64,000 nucleotides of DNA from Bolinopsis microptera (lineage: Eukaryota; Ctenophora; Tentaculata; Lobata; Bolinopsidae). The stretch covers positions 15,612,837 to 15,676,836 of the forward strand of contig NC_087081.1 of assembly GCF_026151205.1 (NCBI RefSeq). The letters run 5' to 3'. The notes under the pieces were generated by a model that saw only the letters and a program-made list of their open reading frames with translations, searched no databases and was not told where the DNA came from. The position numbers were made by a program, and so were the translations under genes. Numbering within the stretch: position 1 is the first letter of the stretch; each line of letters begins with the position of its first letter. Below, one piece after another: positions 23,870-45,564 of the stretch.

Positions 23870-26800
23870 ATAATTTAGGTAACTGCAAAATTGATTGACT
23901 GATTAAAGTTATTAAGTAGCTGAGTAACTTAGTTACTGAGTAGCGGAGAAAGTGAGTTGCCGAGACACAAATCAAAGTAACCCAGTTATTACCCGAATTG
24001 TTTAAGGGTACAGGGTAGCTGTGTTGGATACGCACGAGATTATGAAAACGAGACAATATTAATATTATACCAATATAACTAGCATGCTCAACTGTTCTGC
24101 AAATTAACAAGAGCTATACCTCATTTCTTTGAACTTAATTGTGGTAGCGGACACTTGGAAGCTAAACCAGCTATATAAACGGAAACCAAATAAAGTCCGA
24201 TAAGGTAGTTTTAAAGTGTTTACGTTAAAGTGTTTGTCTCAACTCTGAAATCAGTAACCTAGTACTTAAAAGGAACATTGATATATGGCCCCGCCTAAAT
24301 GTTAGGAAATAATAAATAATAAATTTAAAGTAACTGTTACTGGGTGGCGCTGATCAGCCTGTCATTCTGCTGAATCTCTGTGTTTATGAACACAGCCTGT
24401 GGTCACTAGGTAAGGTAACTGCGAAATTGATTGACTGATTAAAGTAATTAAGTAGCTGAGTTAATAAGTAACTAAGCAGCTGAGGAAGCCAAGTGAGTTA
24501 TCGACTCACAAATCAAAGGTAAAGTAACATTATCTAAGCTATTACCCAAACTGTTTGGGGGTACAGGGTAGCTGTAAGTGTACTGGATAATGCAGGCGCT
24601 ATACGCACGTGATTAATCTTACTATATATAAAGCGAGACGATATATATATATTTATTTATCTGTGCCATTTTACTGACACCACGGCATCAACTTTAACAC
24701 GACTTTCCGCAAAAACCGTAAAAGATATGCAACTGAAACTTTTTTGACTGGGTCAAATGCTTTAATGGCCTTCAAATCAGCATGAAAAAATAAAAAATTG
24801 GCCAAGAAATAGGAGTTTTAGAGCCCAAAATTTGGACCCCCAAGTGGTGTCAAAAACGCGAATTAAATAAGTAATAATTATTTTAGTCTCTTGACACCAC
24901 TTCAGGGTTAGACGGGTTCCTGCTAGTATTATGAAAACAAGACTGTATTATAAGCCTGCAAACTTGCAATAGATTTCTATAGTCGCCTTGAAAGCACTGA
25001 AAATTAACTTCTCTCCGCTGCATTTCACGAGCAGATTATGCTGGGCCTTCCTTGGTACAGTGGCACACCAACATCTCCAAATAAATCTTCTCACCGAATA
25101 TAACTTCCCCCACTCATCCTCTTCAAAATCTAAGCTCTCTACCCAAATCAGTCACAACATGAGGAAAGAATTTGTGGATGTTTGGTGTTGTCTTCGCTCC
25201 CCCTCCCCCCTCTCTCTCGCTCGATCTTTAGGTGCTCGCTCTTTACTGGACGGCGCTCATAATTGACATGACCCGGCCTAAATGCATTAGTAAATAACAT
25301 AATTAAGACTGCGAAATTGATTGAGTTTGACTGAGTAGCTGAGCGTCGAGCGAGCCAAGTGAGTTGCCGAGCGCTATAACTAGACTCTCAGTTTAACTTT
25401 AAGACAGTTATTGTCTGTTTGAGAGTAGTAGCTAATGGCAATGCCAATGCTATTTAATTGTACGTGGATACGCACGAGATTATAAAAACGAGACAACATT
25501 ATACCAATACTTATAGCATGCTCAACTGTTCTGTAAAATAATAAGAGCCATACCTTATGGCTCATTTCTCTGAACTTAATTGTGGTAGCGGACACGTGGA
25601 AACCAAATAAAGTCCGATAAGGTAGTTTTAAAGTGTTTGTCTCAACTCTGCAATCAGTAACCTACTCAAAGGGAACATTGGTATATGGCCCCGCTAGGAT
25701 GTTAGGAAATAATAAATTTGAGGGCAGTCAGCATTCTTGCTCCCCTTTCTCTCTTTCTCTCTTTGGGTACTTGCTCTTTACTGGACGGCGCTCATAATAA
25801 TTTCACTTGTTACTGTTGCTCTGTTGGTATCTCGAATTTTTAACTTTAACTAACTTCTGGTCATACATCCGGATCCCGATGGCACTCTCGTGGCACTCTT
25901 GTCACTTGTGGCACTATGGCGGCACTCTCGTGTCACTATGGCGGAAAATTGCCAACTTTCAATCATGTTCGTTCAAAAGCATAAGAGAATAAGACAATCA
26001 TTATACCTTAATCATTATCTTTTCACAATAACCACGGTGTCATAAAAGCATTACCCTTTATTTACTAGCCTTGTCGACAATTATAAATAGCAACTCTTCA
26101 ATCAATCGCTTTATCAGCATTCCAATTGTTATTTACAATCGTGATCTGGTCACGTGTCACATGCTATCAGCATGTGAAAAAATCCTGTCGCGATGAAATT
26201 GAGAGATTCTCCCAGATCTCTGGATCATAATTTTTTAAAAATTATTAAATTAAAATTAACATTCCAACATTCCAATTACCGTAGCACGAGCTACGTAGGT
26301 TGGAATGTTATTATGCGGTGGTGGTTAAATGGTGTTTTTGACTAACGTAACCTACTCGAAAGGAATATTGACATGGCCCGGCCTAAATGCATTAGGAAAT
26401 AATATAATTAAGACTGCGAAATTGATTGAGTTTGACTGAGTATCTGAGCGTCGAGCGAGCTGAGTGGGTTGCCGAGCGCTAGACTCTCAGTTTAAGACAG
26501 TTGTCTGTTTGAGAGTAATAGCTATGTACGTGAATACGCACGAGATTATGAAAACTAGACAATATTATACCAATACTAGCATGCTCAACTGTTCTGTAAA
26601 ATAATAAGAGCCATACCTTATGGCTCATTTCTCTGAAATTAATTGTGGTAGCGGACACGTGGAAGCTAAACCCTTATATATAAATGGAAACCAAATGAAG
26701 TCCGATAAGGTAGTTTTAAAGTGTTTATGTTAAATCGTTTGTCTCAACTCTGAAATCAGTAACCTACTCAAAGGGAACATTGATATATGGCCCCGCTAGG

Positions 26801-28790
26801 ATGTTAGGAAATAATAAATGATACATTTATCTCCAATTAAAGTAACTGTTAGTGTTACTGGGCGGCGCTGATCAGCCTGTCATTCTGCTGAATCTCTGCG
26901 TTTATGAACACAGCCTGTGGTCCCTAGGTAAGGTAACTGCGAAATTGATTGACTGATGAAAGTAATTAAGTAGCTGAGTTAATAAGTAACTAAGTAGCTG
27001 AGGAAGCCAAGTAAGTTATCGATTCACAAATCAAAGATAAAGTAACATTATAAAGTAAGTTATTACCCAAACTGTTTGGGGGTACAGGGTAGCTGTACTG
27101 GATAATACAGGCGCTATACGCACGTGATTAATATTATGAAAACAAGACTATATTATAAGCCTGCAAACTTGCAATAGATTTCTATAGTCGCCTTGAAAGC
27201 ACTGAAAATTAACTTCTCTCCGCTGCATTTCACGAGCAGATTATGCTGGGCCTTCCTTGGTACACCAACATCTCCAATCTTCTCACCGAATATAACTTCC
27301 CCCACTCATCCTCTTCAAAATCTAAGCTCTCTACCCAAATCAGTCACAACATGAGGAAAAAAATTGTGGATGTTTGGTGTTGTCTTCGCTCCCGGCTCCC
27401 CCCTTCTCTCTCGCTCTCTTTAGGTGCTCGCTCTTTACTGGACGGCGCTCATAATTGACATGGCCCGGCCTAAATGCATTAGTAAATAACATAATTAAGA
27501 CTGCGAAATTAATTGAGTTTTACTGAGTAGCTGAGCGTCGAGCGAGCCAAGTGAGTTGCCGAGCGCTAGACTCTCAGTTTAACTTTAAGACAGTTGTCTG
27601 TTTGAGAGTAGTAGCTAATGCTCTAATAGTCTAATGCTATGTAATTGTACGTGGATACGCACGAGATTATGAAAACGAGACAATATATTATACCAATACT
27701 AGCATGCTCTACTGTTCTGTAAAATAATAAGAGCCATACCTTATGGCTCATTTCTCTGAAATTAATTGTGGTAGCGGACACGTGGAAGCTAAACCCTTAT
27801 ATATAAATGGAAACCAAATGAAGTCCGATAAGGTAGTTTTAAAGTGTTTATGTTAAATCGTTTGTCTCAACTCTGAAATCAGTAACCTACTCAAAGGGAA
27901 CATTGATATATGGCCCCGCTAGGATGTTAGGAAATAATAAATGATAAATTTATCTCCAATTAAAGTAACTGTTAGTGTTACTGGGCGGAGCTGATCAGCC
28001 TGTCATTCTGCTGAATCTCTGTGTTTATGAACACAGCCTGTGGTCCCTAGGTAAGGTAACTGCGAAATTGATTGACTGATGAAAGTAATTAAGTAGCTGA
28101 GTTAATAAGTAACTAAGTAGCTGAGGAAGCCAAGTGAGTTATCGACTCACAAATCAAAGATAAAGTAACATTATCTAAGTTATTACCCAAACTGTTTGGG
28201 GGTATTAATATTATACGAAAACAAGACTATATTATAAGCCTGCAAACTTGCAATAGATTTCTATGGTCGCCTTGAAAGCACTGAAAATTAAGTTCTCTCC
28301 GCTGCATTTCACGAGCAGATTATGCTGGGCCTTCCTTGGTACAACTACACCAAAATCTCCAATCTTCTCACCAAATATAACCTCCCCACTCATCCTATTC
28401 AAAATCTAAGCTCTCTACCCAAATCAGTCACAACATGAGGAAAGAATTTGTGGATGTTTGGTGTTGTCTTCGCTCCCCCTCCCCCCTCTCTCTCACTCTC
28501 TTTAGGTGCTTGCTCTTTACTGGACGCGGCGCTCATAATTGACATGGCCCGGCCTAAATGTATTAGTAAATAACATAATTAAGACTGCGAAATTGATTGA
28601 GTTTGACTGAGTAGCTGAGCGTCGAACGAGCCAAGTGAATTGCCGAGCACTAGACTCTCAGTTTAAGACAGTTGTCTGTTTGAGAGTAATAGCTATGTAC
28701 GTGGATACGCCTTCGCGTGCGAAAAGTGGCATGCAACGTATGTCAACTAATGCTAGCATGCTCAATAACTGTTCTGCAAATTAATAAGAG
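23870..28790 (+). repeat. Tandem array of ~1.1-kb units (about 4.5 copies)
   Basis: The word GACATGGCCCGGCCTAAATG (one variant ACCCGG) recurs at about 25265, 26369, 27457 and 28541, giving spacings of about 1085-1105 bp. GCAGATTATGCTGGGCCTTC recurs at 25033, 27237 and 28316. GTGGTAGCGGACACGTGGAA recurs at about 24143, 25584, 26646 and 27768. The second unit has its middle replaced by a segment of the composite dispersed repeat (about 25725-26350). Each unit includes a short CT-rich tract before TTTAGGTGCTCGCTCTTTAC. The 70-90-codon frames inside (24988-25266, 27243-27458) are duplicated with the repeat and are not credited as genes. Confidence 0.85.
25736..26175 (+). repeat. Composite dispersed repeat, copy 1
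   Basis: Starts with CTCCCC then a CT-rich tract, GCTTGCTCTTTACTGGACGG-like sequence and ATAATTTCACTTGTTACTG. It continues with TTTTTAACTTTAACTAACTT, CATACATCCGGATCCCGATG, a few degenerate GTGGCACTCTC units, GCCAACTTTCAATCATGTTC, CATTACCCTTTATTTACTAG, and ends near TGTCACATGCTATCAGCATG. The same order recurs at about 30.04, 33.53 and 34.68 kb. No protein is encoded. Confidence 0.8.
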
Positions 28791-29167
28791 CTATTTTGTA
28801 TTAATTTAAATTTCTCTGAACGTAAGTGCCAAGTGGTAGTTACCTTGTTACCTTGTTACCTTGTTAATACTTTAATATGCTGAAACCCTAACCCTAACGA
28901 GAAATTAGACCAACTTCCTTATATGGTCATATCATTATTATCATCACGTGATCGAGACAGTTTTTCGCCAATATCTCGCCAGGGGAGCATTTTAATTATA
29001 TATCAATGAGTTAGAACAATCTCGAAGATCGAGTGTAAAGTGATTTAGCACAATTGGGAAAATCCGCCATTATTTTTACCCGCTATTATTTTAACCCGTC
29101 ACAATATGCCATGGGGTGAGCGTCGTTGACGCTCAGCTAAGGGTTCCGTTGCACCTATGCAGCCCCC

Positions 29168-29222
29168 GGTCTACTCAGTCGAATGCTCGACTGAGTAGAC
29201 CATCGTAGTCCCTCCTACGATG
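29168..29222. other. Two adjacent perfect hairpins
   Basis: The first has 15-bp arms (GGTCTACTCAGTCGA and its complement) around ATGC at 29168-29201. It is directly followed by 8-bp arms CATCGTAG / CTACGATG around TCCCTC at 29201-29222. It sits between the 1.1-kb array and the expanded CT tract. It could be an element end or an RNA-level structure; function unknown. Confidence 0.8.
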
Positions 29223-29349
29223 AACCAGAATATTATATAAGAATGCAAGATCAGTTGGCAGTTGTTCCCCTGATCATTACACTAATAATCTGTTTTATTC
29301 CGGTTCGCAGCTCGTTGGTTTACTGGGTATTGTCCTCGTTTTCTTCGCT

Positions 29350-29490
<141 letters not shown>

Positions 29491-29739
29491 TTAGGTGCTT
29501 GCTCTTTACTGGACGTATAGTAAGTCACAGCTCCTCTTAGTAATTAAATGTAATCAATATTGAGCTGTGTTTGCCCTAATGACTTGGTCGGAAAGCAGCT
29601 GATTAATATGTTTCTAAACTCAGATGATGTAATATTAAACCACGATAAACCTGCCAATTACTTAAATAGATGATCACCTATAGAGTATAGGTGCCTGCTC
29701 TGTGCAGTTACTGGACGCCGCTCATAATAATTTTACAGT

Positions 29740-30500
29740 AGATACTTTTATAGCCCTCTTTTGTGCGTAGAAGTTTAGCTTTTCTCAGCTCCTCAGCACT
29801 CAGCAGCCATATAATCAGAGATATTCACATAATTGCATATCAATTTCAATTCCCCCATTCAGTCCTAAGATCTAGATGTGCGTGTGAGGTAACTAAAAAA
29901 AGTGGTTCTACTTCTAACGAGCTACGGTTGGAATGTTGTGTCACGTGGGCAGTGAGATGAGAGGAGCGTGTCAGCAGTCAGCAGTCAGCAGTGGTACACT
30001 TACGCAGCTCCTTTACTTCGGTTTACTAGATTTCGTCTTCGCTCCCCTTTCTCTCTCTCTTTTGGTGCTTGCTCTTTACTGGACGGCGCTCATAATAATT
30101 TCACTTGTTACTGTTGGTATCGTGAATCTTCAACTTTAACTAACTTTTGGTCTCGTGAGTCGTGGCACTCTGGCGGCATACTACCAACTTTCAATCATGT
30201 TTGTTCAAAAGCCTAAGACAATCATTATACCTTAATTATCATCTTTACGCAATAACCACGGTGTCATAAAACTAAAAGCATTACCCTTTATTTACTAGCC
30301 TTGTCGAAGCCTTGTGATTTACAATCCTGATCTGGTGACGTGTCACATGCTATCAGCTTATGGGCGAATTGCAATAACATTCCTGCAGGATACATTAAGG
30401 TATAGCAATAACAAGTCCCACGTGCATTGTTTAGCTGTTTTAGAATCTGGATTGGTATGACGTAGGTATTAACTTGACGTGAGGTGTTTCATATGAATGT
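29740..30500 (+). repeat. Composite dispersed repeat, copy 2
   Basis: The 5' module (TAGATACTTTTATAGCCCTC, then GTTTAGCTTTTCTCAGC, TTCCCCCATTCAGTCCTAAG) matches 34385-34520. It then runs through the CT tract at about 30045 and GCCAACTTTCAATCATG near 30183 to TTAGCTGTTTTAGAATCTGG near 30428. Only about two GTGGCAC units remain in the 11-mer site of this copy. Confidence 0.8.
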
Positions 30501-30589
30501 TGAACCATGCAATCATGTCATTGTCACAGAATATGGCATATAAGACGAGGTCCATAGGGAAATAGCATCAGTGATGTTTCATACTTCCC

Positions 30590-30990
30590 GATCTTTCGAG
30601 TATGCCAGCTACGACGAGATCATGAGATGTTTTCATGATTGAAAGTTGGCACTGTGCCACTAAAGTGCCGCCATAGTACCACGAGAGTGTCACCATAGGC
30701 ATATTGCCGCGACAGTGCCGCCATAGTACCACGAGAGTGTCACCATAGGCATAGTGCCACGACATGAGTGCCACGAGAGTGCCACGACAGTTTCCATCAG
30801 AATCCGGATGTATGACCTTTCCGGTCATACATCCGGATCCCGATGGCCTTTTATGTACGACCCTTTTATGCAGTACCGTGGTTATTGCGAAAAGACAATG
30901 ATGAATGTATAATGATTCTCTTAGAGTCGTAGGCTTTTGAACATTGAACAAACATGATTGAAAGTTGCCGCCATAGTGAAAGTGGTGCCA
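30590..30990. repeat. Inverted junction of composite repeat copies
   Basis: From about 30634 the repeat runs in minus orientation (GATTGAAAGTTGGCACTGTG then CCACGAGAGTG-type 11-mers). It then meets a plus-orientation piece: a CCGGATGTATGACC arm at about 30805-30818 faces GGTCATACATCCGG at 30824-30837 across TTTCC or similar. The arms extend to about 22 bp with two mismatches. This is a head-to-head junction of two copies. Confidence 0.75.
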
Positions 30991-31713
30991 TCGGGATCCG
31001 GATTTATGCGACCTAACTTTTATATAATAAGGCGCGTTGTGCGACCAATATACCTAAAAACTTTACTCTCAATTGTTTAAATATGCGTGCCAGATTTCTC
31101 CATTTATAAACTGTCCAGTTATTCCGTTACTATTACTATTACTAATATGTTTTATGTTAGTTGGTCGGACTTAATCATATTTTATTATAATCTTTTGCGC
31201 ATGTACTCGTTATAGGATACAAACATAGATCAACTTCAAGTCCAATCAAGATGACAATATGATGTTGAATATCAGTCGGGTTATCGATGCTCAAACTGAT
31301 GCTATTTTAAAAATAATGTTTCCCGATACAGAAAATACGTATGTCTTCCGAGAGCTATAAAAAACGTTGGTAGCAAATCCAGTATTGGGTTATATTGTGG
31401 GGACGCGCATGACCGACTTGCCGAATTTTAGAATCCTTATAAAATTCAAAATTAAATCCAACCCTAAAAGATCGTTAACATTAAAAGAAAATCAGGAAAA
31501 AATAGTGAAAACTACCTTAGAAAACTTAAAGAGGATAAGTAAATAAGTTACGTACAAATACGCGGTACACAGAATTATAAATGGACTTGACCTGAATCCA
31601 ACATATAAAGTTCGTCTAATTCAATGTATTGAATACGATGTATGATAAATTAATATATAAATATTAAAACAGTCTATAGTTGTATTGATATACACAGTAA
31701 ACTGTAGTGGCAA
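30991..31713. other. Repeat-derived stretch with a small relic frame
   Basis: Contains TGTTTTATGTTAGTTGGTCG and GCATGTACTCGTTATAGGAT (shared with 32840-32930). A plus-strand frame from about 31240 to 31545 reads ISRVIDAQTDAILKIMF, one stop, then LVANPVLGYIVGTRMTD and a Lys-rich tail. The family is unrecognised; it looks like a relic. Confidence 0.4.
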
Positions 31714-32082
31714 CTAGTGCCTCCTCCGGTCCCTGTCTCTGTTCCTATCCTTGTCTCTGAAGCTATCCCTGATAGTATTATGAAGTTAAGTTCAATGTGT
31801 TTATACGTATATCGTGTAGTCTGTCAATTTAAAAACAGCAGACTTCTTTCTCATTCATAGTGAACTGTAAAAAACGAGACAAGCTGGAGAATAGCTTGAG
31901 CGATGTAGTAACCACACACTTACCGACTGTCATGACCACCACGTGACCCCCACCCTCCGCCGCCTCCTCCACCTCCGCCGCCTCCTCCACGACCACCACC
32001 GCCTCCTCCTCCGCCGCCTCCTCCGCGGGGTCCTCCTCTACCGCCCTTGTTCCAATCAGTGAAGTGCTGCACTGTTCTCACT
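31714..32082 (-). CDS. RGG-rich protein, last two exons (RNA-binding type)
   Basis: Minus strand: exon 32082-31924 (159 bp; acceptor ATTTCTATTCAG, donor TCG/GTAAGTG), a 155-bp intron, then terminal exon 31768-31714 (acceptor ATACTATCAG), with phases 2/1 matching exactly. The first reads VRTVQHFTDWNKGGRGGP followed by a long Gly run with Arg and one Trp (GGWGSRGGHDSR). The second reads a charged RD/RDR tail ending RRRH and a stop. RGG boxes and RD-rich tails are typical of nuclear or nucleolar RNA-binding proteins, but no RRM, KH or helicase domain is visible in this part, so the family is not identified. Upstream exons were not found; the intron directly upstream carries the 11-mer array at 32109-32351. 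Confidence 0.65.
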
Positions 32083-32108
32083 CTGAATAGAAATTAATAT
32101 TAACTATA

Positions 32109-32351
32109 GTGGCACTATCGTGGCACTATCGTGGCACTATCGTGGCACTATCGTGGCACTATCGTGGCACTATCGTGGCACTATCGTGGCACTATCGTGG
32201 CACTATCGTGGCACTATAGTGGCACTATCGTGGCACTATCGTGGCACTATCGTGGCACTATCGTGGCACTATCGTGGCACTATCGTGGCACTATCGTGGC
32301 ACTATCGTGGCACTATCGTGGTACTATCGTGGCACTATCGTGGGACTGTCG
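32109..32351 (+). repeat. 11-bp minisatellite GTGGCACTATC, ~22 copies
   Basis: About 22 nearly perfect tandem copies; variants include one TATAG copy near 32217 and GGTACT/GGGACT near the right end. Because 11 is not a multiple of three, all three plus frames read the same 11-residue word (ALSWHYRGTIV, cyclic). The array lies just upstream of the RGG exon's acceptor site. Confidence 0.97.
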
Positions 32352-32456
32352 TGGTAGATTTAACCTACCGAACATGGAATCCCTTGCTCGGGTGGTACAA
32401 CGCAGTAGAGCCAAGGCTCCGGATCTGCACAGCACAGAAGAATTCATCCTTCCCCC

Positions 32457-32587
32457 AATCCAGTTGTTGAGTACAACAGCTGGATTGCAGACGGCACGTT
32501 TTAAATCGCCCCGAATATATTCAAATAAGTACTGCCTAGTCTTTACAGCCCGGAACCAATCCAGTTGTTGAGTACAACAACTGGATT
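32457..32587. repeat. Two copies of a 30-bp palindrome, 101 bp apart
   Basis: AATCCAGTTGTTG, AGTA, CAACAACTGGATT at 32558-32587 is a perfect 13-bp-arm hairpin. The copy at 32457-32486 has one arm mismatch. Both are followed 40-45 bp on by CGCCCCGAATATATTCA, so the whole ~100-bp unit is duplicated. Confidence 0.85.
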
Positions 32588-33519
32588 AGTTTACGGGCTG
32601 TTAGTGTTACGTCGCCCCGAATATATTCACCCAGAGCTATACGATTCATGCTGTAATTGACTAGCCTTTAACTCTTTAATGACCTGGTCGGACGACGGAC
32701 CTGGTTCTGCAATTATAGCAGCTAATTAATGTTTCTAAACGCGAATGATTTGCCTGCTGCTGTGCTCACACGTCTAAAAATCTAAATTGTTTAAATAATA
32801 ATATGTGTGCCTATCTCCGTTTAACTGTCCAGTAATACCATTACTAATATGTTTTATGTAAGTTGGTCGGACTTACCCACTCTATTTTATTATTTTTACG
32901 CATGTACTCGTTATAGGATGCAAACATAGATCAACGTTTAGCTTTTCTCAGCACCTGAGCTGCCATATCTGATATCAGAGCTATAATTCAGAGAGAGCTT
33001 AGTTATAGGTCGTGATGTGTCGACTCTTCTCAGACCAACTCTACAATGCAGTCCCGTAATGAAGGTTTCTCATTTATCTCACCAAGAACTTCAGCAACTT
33101 TGTTTTATAACTGCTCACCGTTGGATTAACTTATTCCATATATTACGACGTTCCTGCTTCTTTCGTCCTTTTCAGCTATTGTCTTAACTGCACTACAAAT
33201 CTACTTTGGTGTAAGAGCAGCTGCAGGGCAAAAGAATACACCAGATTACACAGGATTAAAATTGAATCAAAGTTCTTCGTCCTTGTTATGTCATGTCATG
33301 TTATGTTATGTCATGTGCTGGTGGTCTGACAATGAGTCCCTTTTCCCCTCTTCATTGTGCACTAAATAATTATAACTATTAGTACATAATCATAATAATA
33401 GTATAACAGTATTTGGTGTTATTCCAGTTCGCAGCCCGTTTAAAAGTTGTAGTTTGATTGTCCCCGGTAACCGGAGACAACGTCTCGCCTCTAGCTAGCT
33501 CTCTGTATGGTGATCAGTT
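32588..33519. other. Repeat-derived stretch, no gene
   Basis: Includes GTTTTATGTAAGTTGGTCGG and ATGCAAACATAGATCAACGT (related to 31180-31230) and GTTTAGCTTTTCTCAGCACC (the composite repeat's 5' module). A short run of TGTCATGTTATG-type words lies at 33288-33316. No exon was recognised. Confidence 0.45.
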
Positions 33520-34215
33520 TACCAGTTGCTGTCTCTCTCTCTCTTGAGGTGCTTGCTCTTTACTCATACTGAACGTCAATCATAATAATTTCACTTGTTC
33601 CTGTTGGTATCGTGAATTTTTAACTTTGACTAACTTTTGGTCATACATGGCACTGTCGTGGCACAGTCGTGGCACAGTCGTGGCACAGTCGTGGTACAGT
33701 CGTGGCACAGTCGTGGGACTGTCGAGGGACTGTCGTGGGACTGTCGTGGTACTATCGTGGCACTGTCGTGGGACTGTCGTGGTACTGTCGTGGTACTGTC
33801 GTGGCACAGTCGTGGGACTGTCGTCGAACTGTCGTGGGACTGTCGTGGCACAGTCGTGGCACAGTCGTGGGACTGTCGTGGTACTGTCGTGGAACTGTCG
33901 TGGGACTGTCGTGGCACTGTCGTGGGTCTGTCGTGGCACTGTCGTGGCACTGTCGTGGCACTGTCGTGGTACTGTCGTGGCACTGTCGTGGCACTACGAC
34001 GGCACTATGGAGGCACTCTGTCGGCAAAGTGCCAACTTTCAATCATGTTCGTTCAAAAGCCTAAGACAGTAAGACAATCATTATACCTTATTTATTATCT
34101 TTTCACATTAACCAAGTAGTCATAAAAGCATTACCCTTTATTTACTAGCCTTGTCGAAAATTATAAATTGCAACTCTTCAATCAATCGCTCTATCAGCAT
34201 TCCAATTGTGAATTA
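33520..34215 (+). repeat. Composite dispersed repeat, copy 3 (expanded 11-mer)
   Basis: Same order as copy 1: CT tract at about 33530, GGTGCTTGCTCTTTACT, ATAATTTCACTTGTTCCTG, TTTTTAACTTTGACTAACTT, CATACATGG, then the 11-mer array, then GCCAACTTTCAATCATGTTC (34030) and CATTACCCTTTATTTACTAG (34131), to about 34215. Confidence 0.85.
33650..34012 (+). repeat. 11-bp minisatellite GTGGCACTGTC, ~33 variable copies
   Basis: About 33 tandem 11-mers of form GTGG-N-AC-(T/A)-GTC, with the variable base cycling among C, G, T and A. The left end prefers GTGGCACAGTC, the centre GTGGGACTGTC and GTGGTACTGTC, and the right end GTGGCACTGTC. Overlapping frames of 96-160 codons on both strands all read the repeat and should not be called genes. 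Confidence 0.97.
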
Positions 34216-34379
34216 GAATAGTTAGCTTCTGTTGAAAACATCCCATGATTTCGATACTACTATTTCCCTATGCAAATTTAGTTCTAAGATTACAAGCAGG
34301 GCTAATGAGTACACTGCACAGTCAAACAATCAACTAGGTAACTTTTGAATGCTCTCCTTTCTTCCACTGATCTGTCCAG

Positions 34380-35182
34380 GCAAATGTAGATACTTTTATA
34401 GCCCTCCTTTGTGTGTATAAGTTTAGCTTTTCTCAGCACCTCAGCAGTCATATCAGAGATATTCATATATATTATATTACATGTCAATTTCGATTCCCCC
34501 ATTCGGTCCTAAGATTACGAGCAAGTGAACTATAGGTGTGCGTGTAAGCTAAATAAAAAAAGTGGTTCTAAAATTGGCAAAAGCAACGGTTCGAATGGTG
34601 TGTAACGTGGGCAGTGTAGACCATAGAGATGAGAGGAGCGTTGTCAGCAGTATAACTTTGTAAGCAGTCAGCAGTATTGCTCCCCTTTCTCTCTTTCTCT
34701 CTTTGGGTGCTTGCTCTTTACTGGACGGCGCTCATAATAATTTCACTTGTTAATGTTGCTATCTCGAATTTTTAACTTTAACTAACTTTTGGTCAATGGT
34801 CATACATCCGAATCCCGATGGCACCTTCGTGGCACTATCGTGGCACTCTTGTGGCACTCTCGTAAGTCGTGGCACTCTGGCGGCATACTACCAACGTTGA
34901 ATCATGTTCGTTCAAAAGCCTAAGACAATCATTAGGTATACCTTCATTATCTTGTCACAATAACCACGGTGTGATCATTAAAACATTACCCTTTATTTAC
35001 TAGCCTTGTCGAAGCCTAATTGTGATCTGGTGACGTGTCACAAGCTATCACCTTATGGACGTTGCGCGGATAACATTCCTGCAGGATACACTTACTGATA
35101 CTTTTAGGTAACACATAGCAATAACAAGTCCCACACGTGCAATGTTCAGTTGTTTTAGAATCTGGATTGGTATGACGTTGGT
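34380..35182 (+). repeat. Composite dispersed repeat, copy 4, interrupted by hAT
   Basis: Full order from TAGATACTTTTATAGCCCTC (34388) through the CT tract (34685), four degenerate 11-mers (34815-34880) and CATTACCCTTTATTTACTAG (34984) to TTTTAGAATCTGGATTGGTA (35152). It is broken at 35190 by the hAT insertion and resumes at 36769. Confidence 0.85.
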
Positions 35183-35603
35183 ATGAGGTATAGGGTTTGC
35201 ATTATCGGTCCAAAATTTTTTATCGCCGATAACCGATAATAATTTTTCAATTATCGGCGATAACGATAATTATCGGCGATAAAATTTGGTCAGAACAATT
35301 AGCTTATTTTCCATCGATTCAGTGGCTTAATTAATCATACGTTCATGATTTATAACTTCCGTGATTGAGGGTCATGAATTCCCGAGATATCGTACACAAA
35401 TTGTAAACGCGTAATTTCAAAATAGTCAATTAATTGAAAGTGAAGATCCGATATACTTTACAGTGAACAGTCAGTGACAATAACAATCTTACACAAAGTG
35501 GAACGCGTAATTCCAAAATTGTAAATTAATCAAAAGTGAAGTGGTATTAACAATCTCCCCCTATTTGTAATGTGTGCAAAGTTAGAACTTGCTACATGAG
35601 TAA

Positions 35604-35738
35604 CTACTTAGAAGCTTTATTAGCAAAATAGTATTTCAAAAAAATCAACATATCTAAAGATTTGTCAGATAGTCTACATCTTAATTTCGTGAGAAAGAGT
35701 CCACTTGCACTCAAGGTCCGCTCTGCCTCAACAGACGT
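35604..35738 (-). pseudogene. hAT C-terminal dimerisation fragment
   Basis: Minus-strand frame reads TSVEAERTLSASGLF, then LTKLRCRLSDKSLDMLIFLK, close to the conserved hAT C-terminus (SxEAERxFSxxG ... LRxRLxxxxxxxLxFL). It is in a different frame from the BED part only 29 bp away, so the two are joined by the internal deletion. No start codon. Confidence 0.85.
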
Positions 35739-35766
35739 GGGCGATGATGTTCAAAATACGGAATGT

Positions 35767-36156
35767 TCATGGCATCTCTGATGAAACTGCTGGTTGCAAT
35801 TTGATTAAATGAGAGTCGGCTAAACGGCTATACATTTCGGCTTGAGTTTTCTTTTCGATGTAAGATACTATTAGGGACTGATTTTTTAGTCGCTTGACTT
35901 TGGGGGATGCCGAAGATTTATCATTATTAGCAGCTGCATTTTTTATACCGTGTTTAACTCTCAAGTGGTACCAAAGACTAGTGTAAGACCTTTTGGCTGT
36001 TGTGCTGAGAAAAGACTTGTCACATTGCATGCAGGCCACGTTGTCCCCATCTTTTGTGAAATGTTTCCAGATCTCGTTGGTTGACATATCAAGATTAACT
36101 AGTTTTCCGAGACACAACAGAAAACAGATAACAACTGATACGTGTAACGTAATCAA
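35767..36156 (-). pseudogene. BED zinc finger of hAT transposase (truncated)
   Basis: A 129-codon open frame. The useful ATG is probably the internal one before STNEIWKHF. It shows the BED finger: IWKHF, then C-x2-C (CMQC), and WYHLRVKH with the paired His. A basic linker follows. The frame then stops where the RNase H-like core should begin. BED fingers bind DNA at the element ends. Could a BED-only protein act as a repressor of related elements? That is inference only. Confidence 0.8.
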
Positions 36157-36768
36157 TCAACGATTTAAGCAAATGAGCGACCCAGGCAAGTTAATCATCG
36201 GCATTTCTCAGGGGAGGGGCGTGGAGTGTGGACTGTGCAGAAGTGTATTGTGTTGTTATGGTGTGTACTGTGTCGGGTTCAAATTATTACCTTATACGGT
36301 TGTAACTGAATTGATAGTTTGAAGTGAACAGCTTATCTGTAATAGGGTGGGGCGAAACTACGGGATACTTATTACAGATTTACCGTTTAAACTTTAATTC
36401 CGTTGAATTCAAATATGCAACTATCCCATGAAATGTGAATACTTTTACATAGTACATACCTTGTTTCACCAATCAACAGTGATAAGATAACATTGCAAAT
36501 CTTGCTGATTTAAGTACTTAAGTAGCAAATTCAGATGTTTTGATCAGTTTCACACATATCTTATGATCAATCTAGTGAAAATGGGAGGTAAGAATCTGCG
36601 AGTTAGCTGTAAAGTCTCGAAAATTCCGAAATTATTTTTGAAAATAAATTTCTGAAATTATCGGTTTATCGGTCAGAAATTATCGCCGATAACCGATAAC
36701 GATTTTACTACGAATTATCGCCTATAATTTTATCGCCGATATTATCGATTGCAAACCCTAATGAGGTA

Positions 36769-37250
36769 GGTATGCAAGTATGACGTTATAGGTATTAACA
36801 TGTAGGTATGACGTAGGTATTAACTTGACGTGTGTGACGTGTGTCATGTGAATTTCAAAATCAATGTTTCTGCAATCAAACAATTACTAATGAGTTCTAA
36901 AAATGTCCAACAAAATCTTTATAAAGTTATAGCATCAGTATATATTTTTCGGAAATATTTTCGTCCATCCTCAATACCTACTAAAGTGTAAAGATAAAAT
37001 GGGGTTGTCATGTGAATGTTGTACCTTGCAATCATGTCATTGTCACAGAATATGTACAATAGTGGCATATAAGACGAGGTCCATAGGGAAATATCATCGC
37101 AGTGATGTTTCACACTTCCCTTTCGAGTATGCCAGCTACAATCACGAGATCATGAGATGTTTTCCTGATTGAAAGTTGGTACTGTGCCACTAGAAAGCCG
37201 CCAGAGTGCCGCCATGCCCATAGTGCCACGAGAGTGCATCGAGAGTGCCT
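36769..37250 (+). repeat. Composite repeat copy 4, distal part
   Basis: Resumes after the hAT with TATGACGTAGGTATTAAC, GACGTGTGTCATGTG, a GCATATAAGACGAGGTCCAT word (shared with 30535 and, degraded, 43150) and the reverse-orientation GATTGAAAGTTGG plus GAGAGTGCC 11-mer remnants ending near 37250. Confidence 0.7.
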
Positions 37251-37259
37251 CGACAGTGC

Positions 37260-37340
37260 TGCACGCCGCCGTTTTTTTTTCAAAACGGCGGCGGCGTGGT
37301 TAAAATCGTCGTCGGCGGCGGCGTAATCGACGTAAGGTCA
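37260..37340. other. GC-rich hairpin (CGCCGCCG ... CGGCGGCG)
   Basis: CACGCCGCCGTTTT at 37261-37275 pairs with AAAACGGCGGCGGCGTG at about 37282-37298 across a T-rich loop, followed by further CGTCGTCGGCGGCGGCG. It is a sharp GC island in AT-rich DNA at the edge of the satellite, possibly an element end. Confidence 0.7.
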
Positions 37341-37439
37341 CGTGATTTCGCAGATTAAATTTTCTTCTAGAATAATACTGCATGTGGAGAGCAATTTTTA
37401 ACAGTTTTGAATTTTGACACGATCAGGTTCGTAATCATG

Positions 37440-40400
37440 ATATAGTGAGGGCTAGTTGAACGCATTTTTGCCACACTTTTGCCACACTTTTGCCACAAAT
37501 TCAAGACGTCATAACTCAAAGATCTTTTCAGATATAATTCTAAAATTTTGACAGCCATGTCCGGTTCTAAACATCGAATCTCCCTAATTTTTGGACAGTC
37601 ACCATATTTTAGGGCATTATTGATACCTACCAAGTTTCAGACAAATTGGTCGCTTACTTTCGGAGTGGCACCGATCGCAACTGGCACAAAATATATTCTT
37701 GTGTTTGACTTCATATCTCATCTCCTAGACATAGAAATTTCTTTGAACTTTGCAGGAACACCTTAAAAGGTGTGCTAAGGGTACTGACAAAATTTAAAGA
37801 AAATCGCTCTAGCCAGTTTTGAGCAATAGGCGACTCAATTTGTGGCAAAAATGAATTTTGACTCTGAACATGGCCAAAGTGGCCACATCCTTAATTTGCT
37901 GTTTTTGGCCCATATCTCCGGTTCTAAACATCGAATCTCCCTAATTTTTGGACAGTCACCATATTTTAGGACATTATTGATACCTACCGAGTTTCAGACA
38001 GATTGGTTGCTTACTTTCGGAGTGGCACCGATCGCGATAGGCACAAAATATATTCTTGTGTTTGACTTCATATCTCAGCTCCTAGACATAGAAATTTCTT
38101 TAAACTTTGCAGGAACACCTTAAAAGGTGTGCTAAGGGTACTGACAAAATGTAAAGAAAATCGCCTGATTCAGTTTTGAGCAATGAGCGACTCAATTTGT
38201 GGCAAAAATGAATTTTGACTCTGAACATGGCCAAAGTGGCCACATCCTTAATTTGCTGTTTTTGGCCCATATCTCCGGTTCTAAACATCGAATCTCCCTA
38301 ATTTTTGGACAGTCACCATATTTTAGGACATTATTGATACCTACCGAGTTTCAGACAGATTGGTCGCTTACTTTCGGAGTGGCACCGATCGCGATAGGCA
38401 CAAAATATATTCTTGTGTTTGACTTCATATCTCAGCTCCTAGACATAGAAATTTCTTTAAACTTTGCAGGAACACCTTAAAAGGTGTGCTAAGGGTACTG
38501 ACAAAATTTAAAGAAAATCGCTCGAGCCAGTTTTGAGCAATAAGCGACTCAATTTGTGGCAAAAATGAATTTTGACTCTGAACATGGCCAAAGTGGCCAC
38601 ATCCTTAATTTGCTGTTTTTGGCCCATATCTCCGGTTCTAAACATCGAATCTCCCTAATTTTTGGACAGTCACCATATTTTAGGACATTATTGATACCTA
38701 CCGAGTTTCAGACAGATTGGTCGCTTACTTTCGGAGTGGCACCGATCGCGATAGGCACAAAATATATTCTTGTGTTTGACTTCATATCTCAGCTCCTAGA
38801 CATAGAAATTTCTTTAAACTTTGCAGGAACACCTTAAAAGGTGTGCTAAGGGTACTGACAAAATGTAAAGAAAATCGCTCGAGCCAGTTTTGAGCAATAA
38901 GCGACTCAATTTGTGGCAAAAATGAATTTTGACTCTGAACATGGCCAAAGTGGCCCCATCCTTAATTTGCTGTTTTTCGGCCCATATCTCCAGTTCTAAA
39001 CATCGAATCTCCCTAATTTTTGGACAGTCACCATATTTTAGGGCATTATTGATACTTACCAAGTTTCAGACAAATTGGTCACTTACTTTCGGAGTGGCAC
39101 CGATCGCGAATGGCACAAAATATATTCTTGTGTTTGACTTCATATCTCAGCTCCTAGACATAGAAATTTCTTTAAACTTTGCAGGAACACCTTAAAAGGT
39201 GTGCTTAGGGTACTGACAAAATGTAAAGAAAATCGCCCGATTCAGTTTTGAGCAATGAGCAACTCAATTTGTGGCAAAAATGAATTTTGACTCTGAACAT
39301 GGCCAAAGTGGCCACATCCTTAATTTGCTGTTTTTCGGCCCATATCTCCAGTTCTAAACATCGAATCTCCCTAATTTTTGGACAGTCACCATATTTTAGG
39401 GCATTATTGATACTTACCAAATTTCAGACAAATTGGTCGCTTACTTTCGGAGTGGCACCGATCGCGAATGGCACAAAATATATTGTTGTGTTTGACTTCA
39501 TATCTCAGCTCCTAGACAAAGAAATTTCTTTAAACTTTGCAGGAACATTTTAAAAGGTGTGCTAAGGGTACTGACAAAATTTAAAGAAAATCGCTCGAGC
39601 CAGTTTTGAGCAATAAGCGACTCAATTTGTGGCAAAAATGAATTTTAACTCTGAACATGGCCAAAGTGGCCCCATCCTTAATTTGCTGTTTTTCGGCCCA
39701 TATGTCCAGTTCTAAACATCCAATCTCCCTAATTTTTGGTAAGTCACCATATTTTAGAGCATTATTGATACTTACCAAGTTTCAGACAAATTGGTCGCTT
39801 ACTTTCGGAGTGGCACCGATCGCGATTGGCACAAAATATATTCTTGTGTTTGACTTCATATCTCAGCTCCTAGACGAAGAAATTACTTTAAACTTTGCAG
39901 GAACACCTCAAAAGGTGTGCTAAGGGTACTGACAAAATGTAAAGAAAATCGCTCGAGCCAGTTTTGAGCAATAAGCGACTCAATTTGTGGCAAAAATGAA
40001 TTTTGACTCTGAACATGGCCAAAGTGGCCCCATCCTTAATTTGCTGTTTTTCGGCCCATATCTCCGGTTCTAAACATCGAATCTCCCTAATTTTTGGACA
40101 GTCACCATATTTTAGGGCATTATTGATACTTACCAAGTTTCAGACAAATTGGTCGCTTACTTTCGGAGTGGCACCGATCGCGATTGGCACAAAATATATT
40201 CTTGTGTTTGACTTCATATCTCAGCTCCTAGACGAAGAAATTTCTTTAAACTTTGCAGGAACACCTTAAAAGGTGTGCTAAGGGTACTGACAGAATGTAA
40301 AGAAAATTGCTCGAGCCAGTTTTGAGCAATAAGCGGCTCAATTTGTGACAAAAATGAATTTTGACTCTGAACATGGCCAAAGTGGCCACATCCTTAATTT

Positions 40401-42140
40401 GCTGTTTTTCGGCCCATATCTCCGGTTCTAAACATCGAATCTCCCTAATTTTTCAACAGTCACCATATTTTAGGGCATTATTGATACTTACCAAATTTCA
40501 GACAAATTGGTCGCTTACTTTCGGAGTGGCACCGATCGCGATTGGCACAAAATATATTCTTGTGTTTGACTTCATATCTCAGCTCCTAGACATAGAAATT
40601 TCTTTAAACTTTGCAGGAACACCTTAAAAGGTGTGCTTAGGGTACTGACAAAATGTAAAGAAAATCGCCTGATTCAGTTTTGAGCAATGAGCGACTCAAT
40701 TTGTGGCAAAAATGAATTTTGACTCTGAACATGGCCAAAGTGGCCACATCCTTAATTTGCTGTTTTTCGGCCCATATGTCCAGTTCTAAACATCCAATCT
40801 CCCTAATTTTTGGTAAGTCACCATATTTTAGAGCATTATTGATACTTACCAAGTTTCAGACAAATTGGTCGCTTACTTTCGGAGTGGCACCGATCGCGAT
40901 TGGCACAAAATATATTCTTGTGTTTGACTTCATATCTCAGCTCCTAGACAAAGAAATTTCTTTAAACTTTGCAGGAACACCTTAAAAGGTGTGTTAAGGG
41001 TACTGACAAAATGTAAAGAAAATCGCTCGAGCCAGTTTTGAGCAATAAGCGACTCAATTTGTTGCAAAAATGAATTTTGACTCTGAACATGGCCAATTAG
41101 TGGCCCCATCCTTAATTTGCTGTTTTTCGGCCCATATCTCCCGTTCTAAACATCGAATCTCCCTAATTTTTGGACAGTCACCATATTTTAGGGCATTATT
41201 GATACTTACCAAGTTTCAAACAAATTGGTCACTTACTTTCGGAGTGGCACCGATCGCGATTGGCACAAAATATATTCTTGTGTTTGACTTCATATCTCAG
41301 CTCCTAGACGTAGAAATGTCTTTAAACTTTGCAGGAACACCTTAAAAGGTGTGCTAAGGGTACTGACAAAATTTTTAAAAATCGCTCGAGCCAGTTTTGA
41401 GCAATAAGCGACTCAATTTGTGGCAAAAATAAATTTTGACTCTGAACATGGCCAAAGTGGCCCCATCCTTAATTTGCTGTTTTTCGGCCCATATCTCCGG
41501 TTCTAAATATCGAATCTCCCTAATTTTTGGACAGTCACCATATTTTAGGGCATTATTGATACTTACCAAGTTTCAGACAAATTGGTTGCTTACTTTCGGA
41601 GTGGCACCGATCGCGATTGGCACAAAATATATTCTTGTGTTTGACTTCATATCTCAGCTCCTAGACATAGAAATTTCTTTAAACTTTGCAGGAACACCTT
41701 AAAAGGTGTGCTAAGGGTACTGACAAAATTTAAAGAAAATCGCTTGAGCTAGTTTTGAGCAATAAGCGACTCAATTTGTGGCAAAAATGAATTTTGACTC
41801 TGAACATGGCAAAGTGGCCCCATCCTTAATTTGCTGTTTTTGGCCCATATCACCGGTTCTAAACATCGAATCTCCCTAATTTTTGGACAGTCACCATATT
41901 TTAGGGCATTATTGATACTTACCAAGTTTCAGACAAATTGGTCGCTTACTTTCGGAGTGGCACCGATCGCGAATGGCACAAAATATATTCTTGTGTTTGA
42001 CTTCATATGTCAGCTCCTAGACATTGAAATTTCTTTAAACTTTGCAAGAACGCCTTAAAAGGTGTGCTTAGGGTACTGACAAAATTTAAAGAAAATCGCT
42101 CGTGCCAGTTTTAAGCAATAAGCGACTCAATTTGTGGCAA
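37440..42140 (+). repeat. Satellite array, ~357-bp unit, about 13 copies
   Basis: The word ATATTCTTGTGTTTGACTTC (one TTGTTG variant) recurs at about 37690, 38049, 38406, 38763, 39120, 39479, 39837, 40197, 40555, 40913, 41273, 41631 and 41992, a period of 357-360 bp. The first copy is divergent on its left and the last truncated. Copies 2-4 are almost identical. Each copy has an 88-93-codon plus frame (ending NFAGTP and stop at AACACCTTAA) and a minus frame (VSINNALKYGDCPKIREI). No domain is recognisable, and no start context or splice signals make them convincing genes. The two halves of the unit resemble each other (see findings). Confidence 0.95.
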
Positions 42141-42885
42141 ATTCTGATTTTATGTTTTTATTTGTGCTTTTGAGGCCCTATAAGTCTTTTTGCTGCAACA
42201 TGGAACTTTTTGAGACTCTCAACATATTTGCTGAGGTAATTAGACTACTCCTTGAACTCCTAGTAGTCGGTATGAACGGTATGGTTTGAGTCGCGAGAAG
42301 TTAAAGTTGGTGTAAATCTGCGCCGAGGGAGTGAAGCAGATTTGTGGCAGATTTGCGCTCAACTATATAATAGTTCTTTATAATATCAAGCTGACAGCCA
42401 ACCGACTATAACCAAGTTATTGTTAGCAAAACCACTGCGCGCGTGCCGAGTTATTCATATTGTTACTCGATTAGAGCTCGCGTTTGCGTTGCTCCATGTC
42501 TCGTGACGTAGTTATAGCATGACGTAGCTAGTATATTCCTTAAACATGTGCATAGATCATCATCAACGGGAAAATATCGACGTTAGCGATGCCTGCTACA
42601 GTATCTACTCGTGTACAAATTATATAGAAAATAATATGGTCTGAAATATTCATGGATTTCGTTCAACAAATTCTTGCCAAAATTACGAACCACTATAAGT
42701 CGAGTGCCGCCAGAGTGCCGCTATAGACATAAATAAACAGGTTCACGCCGTGTTCACCGTTTGAAAATCACGTGATCGAGACAGGTTTTCGCCGATATCT
42801 CGCCATGAGGGGAGCATTTGTGTAGTACAGTACACAGTACAGTACTTCGATAATCCCCCTCCCCACTGGCAGGGAGCAATATATA
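42141..42885. other. Non-coding; fragment of shared module
   Basis: No gene seen. Near 42770-42815 the words CACGTGATCGAGACAGG and CCGATATCTCGCC, GGGGAGCATTT match the module at 28945-28990 and 14811. TACAGTACACAGTACAGTAC lies at 42826-42845. Confidence 0.5.
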
Positions 42886-43230
42886 ACGCATATAAGGCAA
42901 AAGCATTACCCTTTATTTACTAGCCTTATCAAAGATTATTAATTGCAACTCTTTAATCATTCACCCTATCAGGCCTATCAGCATTCCAATCGTGATTTAC
43001 AATCGTGATCTGGTGACATGTCACACGAACGTGCAATGTTCAGTTGTTTTAGAATCTGGATTGATATATGACGTAGCCCGTAGGTATTAACATGACGTGA
43101 GGTGTGTCATGTGAATGCTACGTTGTAAATTGCAATTTGCAATCATATCACAGAATTTGGCATATAACTATAAGTCGAGCTCCATATAAGGGAAATAGCA
43201 TCAATGATGGTTCACACTTCCCAATCTTTC
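42886..43230 (+). repeat. Composite dispersed repeat, copy 5 (distal half)
   Basis: Begins AAAGCATTACCCTTTATTTA at about 42899, passes CCAATCGTGATTTACAATCG and CAGTTGTTTTAGAATCTGGA (43040), to GACGTGAGGTGTGTCATGTG (43094) and GGGAAATAGCATCAATGATG (43190). It lies back-to-back with copy 6. Confidence 0.8.
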
Positions 43231-44490
43231 AATAACGACAGCTACGAGGAGTTTCGAGATCATGGGATGTTTTCAACAGAAGCTATAAGCTATTTGCATC
43301 TTTGTATGCAGTTCGTCGAACTTGGCTGCGGTTAGCATTTACATCTCAAGTTCCTGCCTCTTTGTCATCTAGCGTCAGATAGCGACATTGAAAGGGTACC
43401 CGACAGTAGCTGATCTCTACAAACGGGTTATTTGCAAATACCACGATCCGAACAGCCGAAGCCGCCAACCTGTTCCAGAGATCCGGAAGACTGGGAAGAA
43501 CTTACGTCATCGTCATACCAATCCAGATTCTAGAACAACTAAACATTGCACGTGAGACTTGTTATTGCGATGTGATTAGTATACCTCAAGTAATACCTCA
43601 AGTAATACCTCAAGTAAAACCTCAATTATACCTCAAGTAATACCTCAAGTAATACCTCAAGTAATACCTCAAGTAATACCTCAAGTAATACCTCAAGTAT
43701 TACCTCAAGTAATACCTCAAGTAATACCTCAAGTAATACCTCAAGTAATACCTCAAGTAATACCTCAAGTAATACCTCAAGTAATACTTCAAGTAATACC
43801 TCAAGTAATACCTCAAGTAATACCTCAAGTTATACCTACCTCAAGTAATACCTACCTAAAGTAATACCTACCTCAAGTAATACCTCAAGTAATACCTCAA
43901 GTAATACCTCAAGTAATACCTCAAGTTATACCTCAAGTAATACCTCAAGTAATACCTCAATTAATACCTCAAGTAATACCTCAAGTAATACCTCAAGTAA
44001 TACCTCAAGTAATACTTCAAGTAATACCTCAAGTAATACCTCAAGTAATACCTCAAGTAATACCTCAAGTTATACCTCAAGTAATACCTCAAGTTATACC
44101 TACCTCAAGTAATACCTACCTAAAGTAATACCTACCTCAAGTAATACCTCAAGTAATACCTCAAGTAATACCTCAAGTAATACCTCAAGTTATACCTCAA
44201 GTAATACCTCAAGTAATACCTCAATTAATACCTCAAGTAATACCTCAAGTAATACCTCAAGTAATACCTCAAGTAATACTTCAAGTAATACCTCAAGTAA
44301 TACCTCAAGTAATACTTCAAGTAATACCTCAAGTGTATTCTGCATGAATGTTATCACAAAGCCCAAAGGCTGAGCATGTGACACGTTTCCAGATCACAAT
44401 TGGAATGCTGATATAGCGATTGATTGTTGACTCATGTTACTCGTATAAATTTCTTCGAAGTAGCGCTAGTAAATAAAGGGTATAATGCTT
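43231..44490 (-). repeat. Composite dispersed repeat, copy 6, inverted, with 12-mer expansion
   Basis: In minus orientation: AAAGCATTATACCCTTTATT at about 44493-44474, AGCATTCCAATTGTGATCTG near 44390-44410, CGTGTCACATGCT near 44375-44385, then the 12-mer array, then AACAAGTCTCACGTGCAATG near 43550-43565 and CAGATTCTA-flanked sequence near 43525. The array occupies the place where other copies have only one CTTGAGGTAT/ATTAAGGTAT-like word. Confidence 0.8.
43580..44335. repeat. 12-bp minisatellite TACCTCAAGTAA, ~62 copies
   Basis: Nearly perfect 12-mers with a few variants (TACTTCAAG, CAATTAATA, TTATACC). A longer variant block, TATACCTACCTCAAG then TACCTACCTAAAG, occurs at about 43830-43878 and again at 44094-44142, 264 bp (22 units) later. 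The minus frame reads EVLL repeatedly because 12 is a multiple of three; I do not credit it as a gene. Confidence 0.97.
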
Positions 44491-44634
44491 TTATGCACTG
44501 GGAGACTTTGGGACCGGAAACTGATTCGGCCCCCAAAGAGGGGTCGATCACGTCACCAATCAGTGACGTACAATTGCATTTTCAATATCCAGCTGTAAGA
44601 TTAATATATCCCTATATATCCCAATAGTCCAATT

Positions 44635-45105: not shown

Positions 45106-45180
45106 AAATATTGAAATTAGTGACAATTTTTATAAAAATTAGTTCATTATACGTGTAATGTAATTTGACCATAACCCATT

Positions 45181-45564
45181 TCATTCTCGGTATCAATTTG
45201 CATTTGCGGACGGTTCCTCGAATTAATATCATGTCCTTTTATTTGGAAAAGAGAGACAGTGGCAGTGGTTCACTCTACCCATGATTATGGGTTTTGGTCA
45301 AATATCATCTCTTTTTGATTATAATGTCAGAATAATTTACACAGTCGAAACTTCATTAATAAGGAGGTAATTTCATTCTCGGTATCAATTTGCATTTGCG
45401 GACGGTTCCTCGAATTAATATCATGTCCTTTTATTTGGAAAAGAGAGACAGTGGCAGTGGTTCACTCTACCCATGATTATGGGTTTTGGTCAAATATCAT
45501 CTCTTTTTGATTATAATGTCAGAATAATTTACACAGTCGAAACTTCATTAATAAGGAGGTAATT
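45181..45564 (+). repeat. Perfect 192-bp tandem duplication
   Basis: 45181-45372 and 45373-45564 are identical by eye over all 192 bp, starting TCATTCTCGGTATCAATTTG. It begins 75 bp after the geminin-like stop codon, likely in its 3' UTR or just past it. Identity suggests a very recent duplication or an assembly artefact. Confidence 0.95.

Follow-up and report, generated by a model that had tools for sequence, protein, structure and literature searches.

Foldback elements carrying tandem repeats in their ends are already well known, and the dispersed family of the ctenophore Bolinopsis microptera analysed here adds a member to them. The closest in build is Tm1 (Mutator/Foldback) of Meloidogyne, root-knot nematodes, whose inverted repeats consist mostly of 13-15 bp tandem units located behind a short terminal motif; common to Tm1 and the present family are composite inverted repeats, variable short tandem units behind a short terminal motif, unequal arms, MITE-like small members and no clear target consensus (PMC3169594). 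Tm1 has other sequences, mostly 9-bp target duplications and, in one member, a MULE transposase, whereas the present family has 8-bp duplications, GG...CC termini, an 11-bp unit and no transposase in the copies examined. Tetris/DAIBAM of Drosophila virilis is also a foldback element with variable tandem repeats in its inverted repeats and in free arrays, and no autonomous copy of it was found; it differs in its unit (~220 bp versus 11 bp here) and in its duplications (8-10 bp), and its authors suggest Mutator (PMC4079207). Galileo (P superfamily) resembles the present family in its long dynamic inverted repeats, its arm-to-arm difference in unit number and its chimeric copies with unmatched target sequences; it differs in having ~210-bp units, a P-type transposase and a 7-bp duplication (PMC3573991), which was perfect in none of the 28 end pairs examined here. 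The Merlin superfamily shares 5'-GG termini, duplications of 8 or 9 bp and internal tandem repeats (PMC8101967), but no Merlin transposase was found between the ends of the present family. A full-text search with four of the terminal and array sequences returned four papers, none of them concerned with a transposon as judged by title or abstract, and by this search the present family was not found in print.

The window, meaning the whole stretch of 64,000 nucleotides analysed (C10:15612837-15676836, in a genome of 264.65 Mb and 232 contigs that was searched), contains the four long tandem arrays listed by a first-pass annotation, all of which were confirmed as real by TRF and by direct count (coordinates are window positions on the forward strand, unless otherwise stated): a CT microsatellite at 29355-29490, which precedes TTTACTGGACG and lies outside the transposon (68 copies, longest pure run n = 64); a free-standing 11-mer array of TGGCACTATCG at 32103-32354 (22.9 units), with no adjoining transposon module; an 11-mer array of TGGCACTGTCG at 33648-33995 (31.6 units); and a 12-mer array of ATACCTCAAGTA at 43581-44334, in the right arm of a mirrored copy (62.9 units by TRF, 60 when up to two mismatches are allowed). 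Scans of the window with Rfam (gathering threshold) and ARAGORN (bacterial code) gave no matches. The annotation had attributed the arrays to one element seeding three unrelated satellites at set internal positions. We consider it very probable that two unrelated things are superimposed here: a genome-wide family of foldback-like transposons, and the local duplication of one insertion beside a CT tract, with later private expansions.

The terminus-side motif CCGGATCCCGATGGCAC has 159 matches in the genome at two mismatches or fewer (74 forward and 85 reverse; 1 and 3 for the reversed control), and exact GGTCATACATCC has 115, compared to 12 for its control. The run from CCGGATCCCGATGGCAC through TTACCCTTTATTTACTAG is spread over contigs C1-C13 and C224, in at least 85 matching pieces. 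The element ends read GGTCATACATCC...GGATGTATGACC, and the fetched copies start with GGTCATACATCCGGATCCCGATGGCAC and end, inverted, with GTGCCATCGGGATCCGGATGTATGACC; since fetching relied on terminus and arm sequence matches and took in only some of the 159 sites, the sample is short of elements whose ends have diverged. Ends were paired by end sequence alone, identical flanks being counted once, which gave 28 pairs including one from the window (L036, in which the flanking octamers agree at 1/8). The flanking octamers were equal at seven or more of the eight positions in 16 of these 28 copies (11 perfect), compared to none of 756 mismatched pairs, whose best agreement was 6/8; at 5, 6, 7, 9 or 10 bp there was no comparable signal among the 28 pairs. 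The 12 pairs lacking an 8-bp duplication at this threshold include some that are chimeric, truncated or mis-paired (e.g. L014, L042, L066). Both things that the first-pass annotation had recommended looking for among genome-wide copies, termini and a target duplication, are present, the latter measuring 8 bp.

The copies with a target duplication range from 59 to 1136 bp. In L012, L014, L016, L019 and L028 the modules of one arm recur in mirror image on the other, and inner sequences match in both orientations at single loci, indicating that the arms reach deep into the element. Single-strand folding of four small copies (all that were folded) gave long hairpins, with z values of -8.8 to -10.8. 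A 110-bp arm segment differs from its consensus by a mean of 5.9% in 25 copies, a value that is a floor, since the segments were picked by anchors with four mismatches or fewer. A foldback-like DNA transposon is recognised by terminal inverted repeats between target duplications of one fixed length and by long inverted repeats with tandem repeats in variable number; the dispersed family shows both and is a non-autonomous member of this kind. The earlier comparison with MITEs and Helitrons carrying internal minisatellites was right in kind for MITEs (non-autonomous, with terminal inverted repeats, a target duplication and an 11-bp array at a set place near the ends) and wrong for Helitrons, which have neither terminal inverted repeats nor a target duplication, both present here. 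Elements of the hAT type make 8-bp duplications and have ends of the CAGGG/TAGGG type; hAT was rejected for the foldback family, whose ends are GGTCATAC. Separately, at L042:1840-3050 a larger palindrome is centred on an element, the sequences directly to either side of the element being mutual reverse complements, and the loci L043 and L044, 128 kb apart on C2, are segmental duplicates ~96% identical with the same foldback insertion in both.

The 11-mer unit is TGGCACTNTCG, with the eighth base free. An array of it lies directly behind the terminus in 85 of 102 ends (at least one unit) and is missing from the other 17, the range being 0-41 units; these 102 termini come from 88 loci minus 11 cut from the window, the window being counted once, at five mismatches or fewer in 21 bases. 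The two arms are unequal in unit number in 15 of the 16 copies with a duplication (automatic walk, three mismatches per unit allowed). The 11-mer site is part of the element, with a variable number of units. A genome search with the 11-mer array returned 17 candidate places. Several of them adjoin a terminus or an arm module; at L088 a terminus flanks only one side of the array. L087 is 11-mer array over all its 521 bases. The free arrays at 32.1 kb of the window and at L087 are what would be expected if the 11-mer were an ordinary satellite into which transposons happened to land, an explanation that we regard as very improbable, because the array begins at the same place, right behind the terminus, in those 85 ends and is found inside the 8-bp duplications as well. 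Free 11-mer arrays are most simply elements that lost their ends; L053 and L086, in which one side has arm modules and the other lacks a clear terminus, look like intermediate states.

The order of modules in the window was read from the sequence, from self-comparison of the region and from module marking. Four forward copies (25.78, 30.08, 33.57 and 34.72 kb) present the order CT tract, TTTACTGGACGG, ACTTTAACTAACTT or a near-match, 11-mers, GCCAACTTTCAATCATG, TTACCCTTTATTTACTAG, and do so with gaps: the TTTACTGGACGG module is weak in the 33.57-kb copy, where it reads CATACTGAACG; the 30.1-kb copy has about one degenerate 11-mer at the 11-mer site; CCGGATCCCGATGGCAC is absent from two of the four (30.1 and 33.6 kb); and the series of modules can be followed to E (26.15 kb) in the 25.78-kb copy, to D in the 33.57-kb copy and to G in the 30.08- and 34.72-kb copies. 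A further copy, at 42.9-44.5 kb, is a fragment in mirrored form that lacks the CT tract, the terminus and the 11-mers. The six or more copies in one fixed order of the first-pass annotation amount to these four, which do keep the order, plus one truncated mirrored element. Its view that different copies of the composite had each expanded a different site is mistaken in substance: two of the four arrays are outside the composite copies, since (CT)64 has no directly following module and the 11-mers at 32.1 kb have no adjoining one.

One window copy retains both boundaries, that of 865 bp at 30149-31013, flanked by a perfect TAACTTTT target duplication (left copy at 30141-30148, identical right copy at 31014-31021). 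Its left terminus is degenerate (GGTC only), for which reason it is outside the 28 end pairs, and its right arm is present twice, with a 5-bp spacer between the two end sequences near 30817/30823. The left TAACTTTT copy is the end of ACTTTAACTAACTTTT; being located between perfect TAACTTTT copies, the left one ending ACTTTAACTAACTTTT, the element inserted into local sequence. The other copies are incomplete: a left arm at 25859-26176, with terminus GGTCATACATCCGGATCCCGATGGCAC, 11-mers, GCCAACTTTCAATCATG, TTACCCTTTATTTACTAG and TCACGTGTCACATGCTATC, the rest missing (module marking); a left arm at 33639-34227, whose shortened terminus, GGTCATACAT, runs straight into the 11-mer array (TRF and module marking); a left arm at 34798-35190, extending from the terminus as far as module G, broken by a hAT-like insertion (module marking) and continued beyond it at 36769-37259 by an inner part and an inverted right-arm remnant (self-comparison and module marking); and the mirrored copy, at 42899-44526, assigned to neither strand, which has inner modules on both arms and neither termini nor 11-mers (self-comparison and module marking). 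The hAT-like element is non-autonomous, occupies 35191-36760 (35183-36768 with its duplication), has the ends TAGGGTTTGCA/TGCAAACCCTA and a perfect 8-bp ATGAGGTA duplication, and split the 34.8-kb foldback copy later. In the self-comparison, the blocks 25712-26077, 29738-30469 and 34386-35184 align at 71-82%; from this homology the joint would have been duplicated nearby, together with the CT-bearing segment, after the insertion.

Three other features were observed in the same part of the window. A 358-bp satellite (12.8 copies, 96% matches) extends over 37560-42141, shortly past the right-arm remnant of the 34.8-kb copy. At 45178-45567 a 192-bp unit forms a tandem duplicate with 100% matches, either a very recent duplication or an assembly effect. 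A 703-aa open frame on the minus strand, at 47811-49922, gave no Pfam match (E 1) and no match to a solved structure (E 0.1).

The DNA on the CT side behaves differently from the dispersed family. A 91-base query running from TTTACTGGACGG to ACTTTAACTAACTT, with its lead, has seven matches in the 264.65 Mb, all of them in the window (15.638-15.648 Mb of C10), four covering the whole query and three only its first 37 bases. The host segment CT-TTTACTGGACGG-ACTTTAACTAACTT adjoining the insertion is at 30034-30148 (self-comparison and genome query), and segments related to it are located near 25.2, 25.8, 27.4, 28.5, 29.5, 33.5 and 34.7 kb; seven of these eight CT-side segments, all except that at 29.5 kb, are the genome-query matches, and none is outside the window. 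The 29.5-kb segment, that of (CT)64, shares only the CT-TTTACTGGACG part and was not reported by the 91-base query, so short CT-side pieces elsewhere could be missed. It has no directly following transposon module; next comes the 30.1-kb copy, which has its own CT segment. Since the CT-side segment was found in the window only, the CT tract and the sequences around it are most plausibly local DNA outside the dispersed family. The stretch 25000-28828 is composed of diverged segmental duplications (~1.1 kb spacing, 80-89% identity) that carry the CT-TTTACTGGACG segment.

The 12-mer site gives a third pattern. Copies in which it is readable carry no more than a single unit, which often reads GGATACACTTAGGTATC or GGATACACTTGAGGTATC. 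The 12-mer dimer, at three mismatches or fewer, has 53 genome matches, all in the array of the window (reversed control 0), and no second 12-mer array was found in the genome by this search. The array is a private expansion of a single-copy site, not a recurrent property of the family. Two identical variant stretches 264 bases apart within it (43821-43885 and 44085-44149) suggest that it grew partly by inner duplication.

These results bear on the possibility that the CT tract and the 12-mer site are both parts of a single transposon family, from which three satellites are seeded at fixed places. In its favour, the order from CT tract to transposon is common to the four forward copies of the window, and the sequence from which the 12-mer arose has a single occurrence at the corresponding position of other copies; it is nevertheless most unlikely, given that the CT-side segment was found nowhere else in the genome with the 91-base query, that the target duplication and terminus set the element boundary after ACTTTAACTAACTTTT, that the (CT)64 copy is not directly followed by a transposon and that a second 12-mer array was not found. 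The single seeding element of the first-pass annotation is not retained: CT lies outside the transposon, in locally duplicated DNA, and the 12-mer expansion was found in just one arm of one copy. Arrays existing apart from the flanking modules, which that annotation had named as the observation that would count against it, do occur for CT and for some 11-mer arrays (32.1 kb of the window, L087). The preferred reading is the superposition of a dispersed transposon family and a locally duplicated insertion.

The transposase that mobilises the family can be approached from its ends and from the transposases of the genome. No transposase-encoding copy was found among the copies examined; the inner open frames of copies longer than 400 bp gave no lead, and the one of them that was compared with Pfam, of 97 aa from L066, the longest end pair, had no match. 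Pfam profiles gave 58 genome matches for DDE_Tnp_IS1595, 88 for MULE and none for PF21787, which we take to stand for the P-type transposase and which was silent in the control genomes as well. Among the intact IS1595-domain families of the genome is one of 318 aa at C11:746202. Mobilisation by a Merlin (IS1595/IS1016-type) transposase is about evenly balanced between true and false in our estimation. The 5'-GG termini and the 8-bp duplication are those of this superfamily, in which 5'-GG termini, inverted repeats of 24-462 bp, duplications of 8 or 9 bp and, in several families, internal tandem repeats are described (PMC8101967). The 58 IS1595 matches in the genome point in the same direction, and for three of them an element site, out of the 98 compared, is no more than 4.1 kb away (chance expectation 0.17, P ~0.001), a post hoc comparison whose threshold was set after seeing the distances and for which the size of C5 was estimated. 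A position within an element was established for none of these three: at C7 and C10 the element extends in the direction opposite to the match, and the C2 match adjoins a segmental duplicate, the sequence read stopping short of the right end. The only IS1595 match that was read is at L089, whose 1501 bases contain no GGTCATACATCC-like ends. The assignment to the Merlin superfamily, which fits the GG...CC termini and the 8 bp, is tentative, because no transposase-bearing copy was found.

A Mutator-like (MULE) transposase has been proposed to move Tetris and is established for Tm1 from its gene content; for the present family, mobilisation of this type is possible but rather unlikely. It would agree with the foldback structure and the short tandem units in the ends, as in Tm1, and with the 88 MULE-domain matches; the duplication, however, is sharply 8 bp, with no signal at 9 or 10, versus mostly 9 in Tm1, and no MULE match comes closer than 37 kb to an element site in a list of 116 (a list lacking ~59 of the 159 motif sites). 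Mutator (MULE) target duplications range from 8 to 11 bp, 8 being the low edge. An exact end pair 3.2 kb apart at C8:2810963-2814185, with an inner-sequence match near each end (2813459-2814859 is L073), is the best candidate for a longer and perhaps coding member.

The plan of the element is a 5'-GGTCATACATCC terminus, an array of the 11-bp unit, further arm modules and then the mirrored modules on the other arm, the smallest copies (from 59 bp) being nearly pure hairpins. Insertion would take place by a transposase supplied in trans, likeliest of the Merlin type, with an 8-bp staggered cut as the duplication suggests. The number of 11-mers changes independently in each arm. Slippage or unequal exchange is the presumed cause, and the capacity of the DNA to form hairpins may promote either; the units may be extra transposase-binding sites, by analogy with statements on Galileo (PMC3573991) and Tetris (PMC4079207). 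At this locus, one element landed at TAACTTTT beside the CT tract, and the joint would then have been copied several times by local segmental duplication and scrambled, judging from the homology of the segments; the private expansions would have come later, of CT at one copy without a transposon and of the 12-mer in one arm of one copy. A more far-reaching scheme would have the foldback family moved by a Merlin transposase, its 11-mer array acting as a tunable transposase-binding block that sets mobility per arm, the 59-132 bp hairpins remaining mobile and end-less arrays seeding free minisatellites; it is speculative, and we think it improbable as a whole.

The gain is modest, since foldback elements with tandem-repeat ends were already known. 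The locus carries a warning, namely that a module order common to one locus can stem from local duplication and not from one element. The family provides a compact natural series, with 0-41 units, independently varying arms and insertion footprints around copies of 59 bp to ~1.1 kb, and this series lets one ask how minisatellites arise inside transposon ends and get free.
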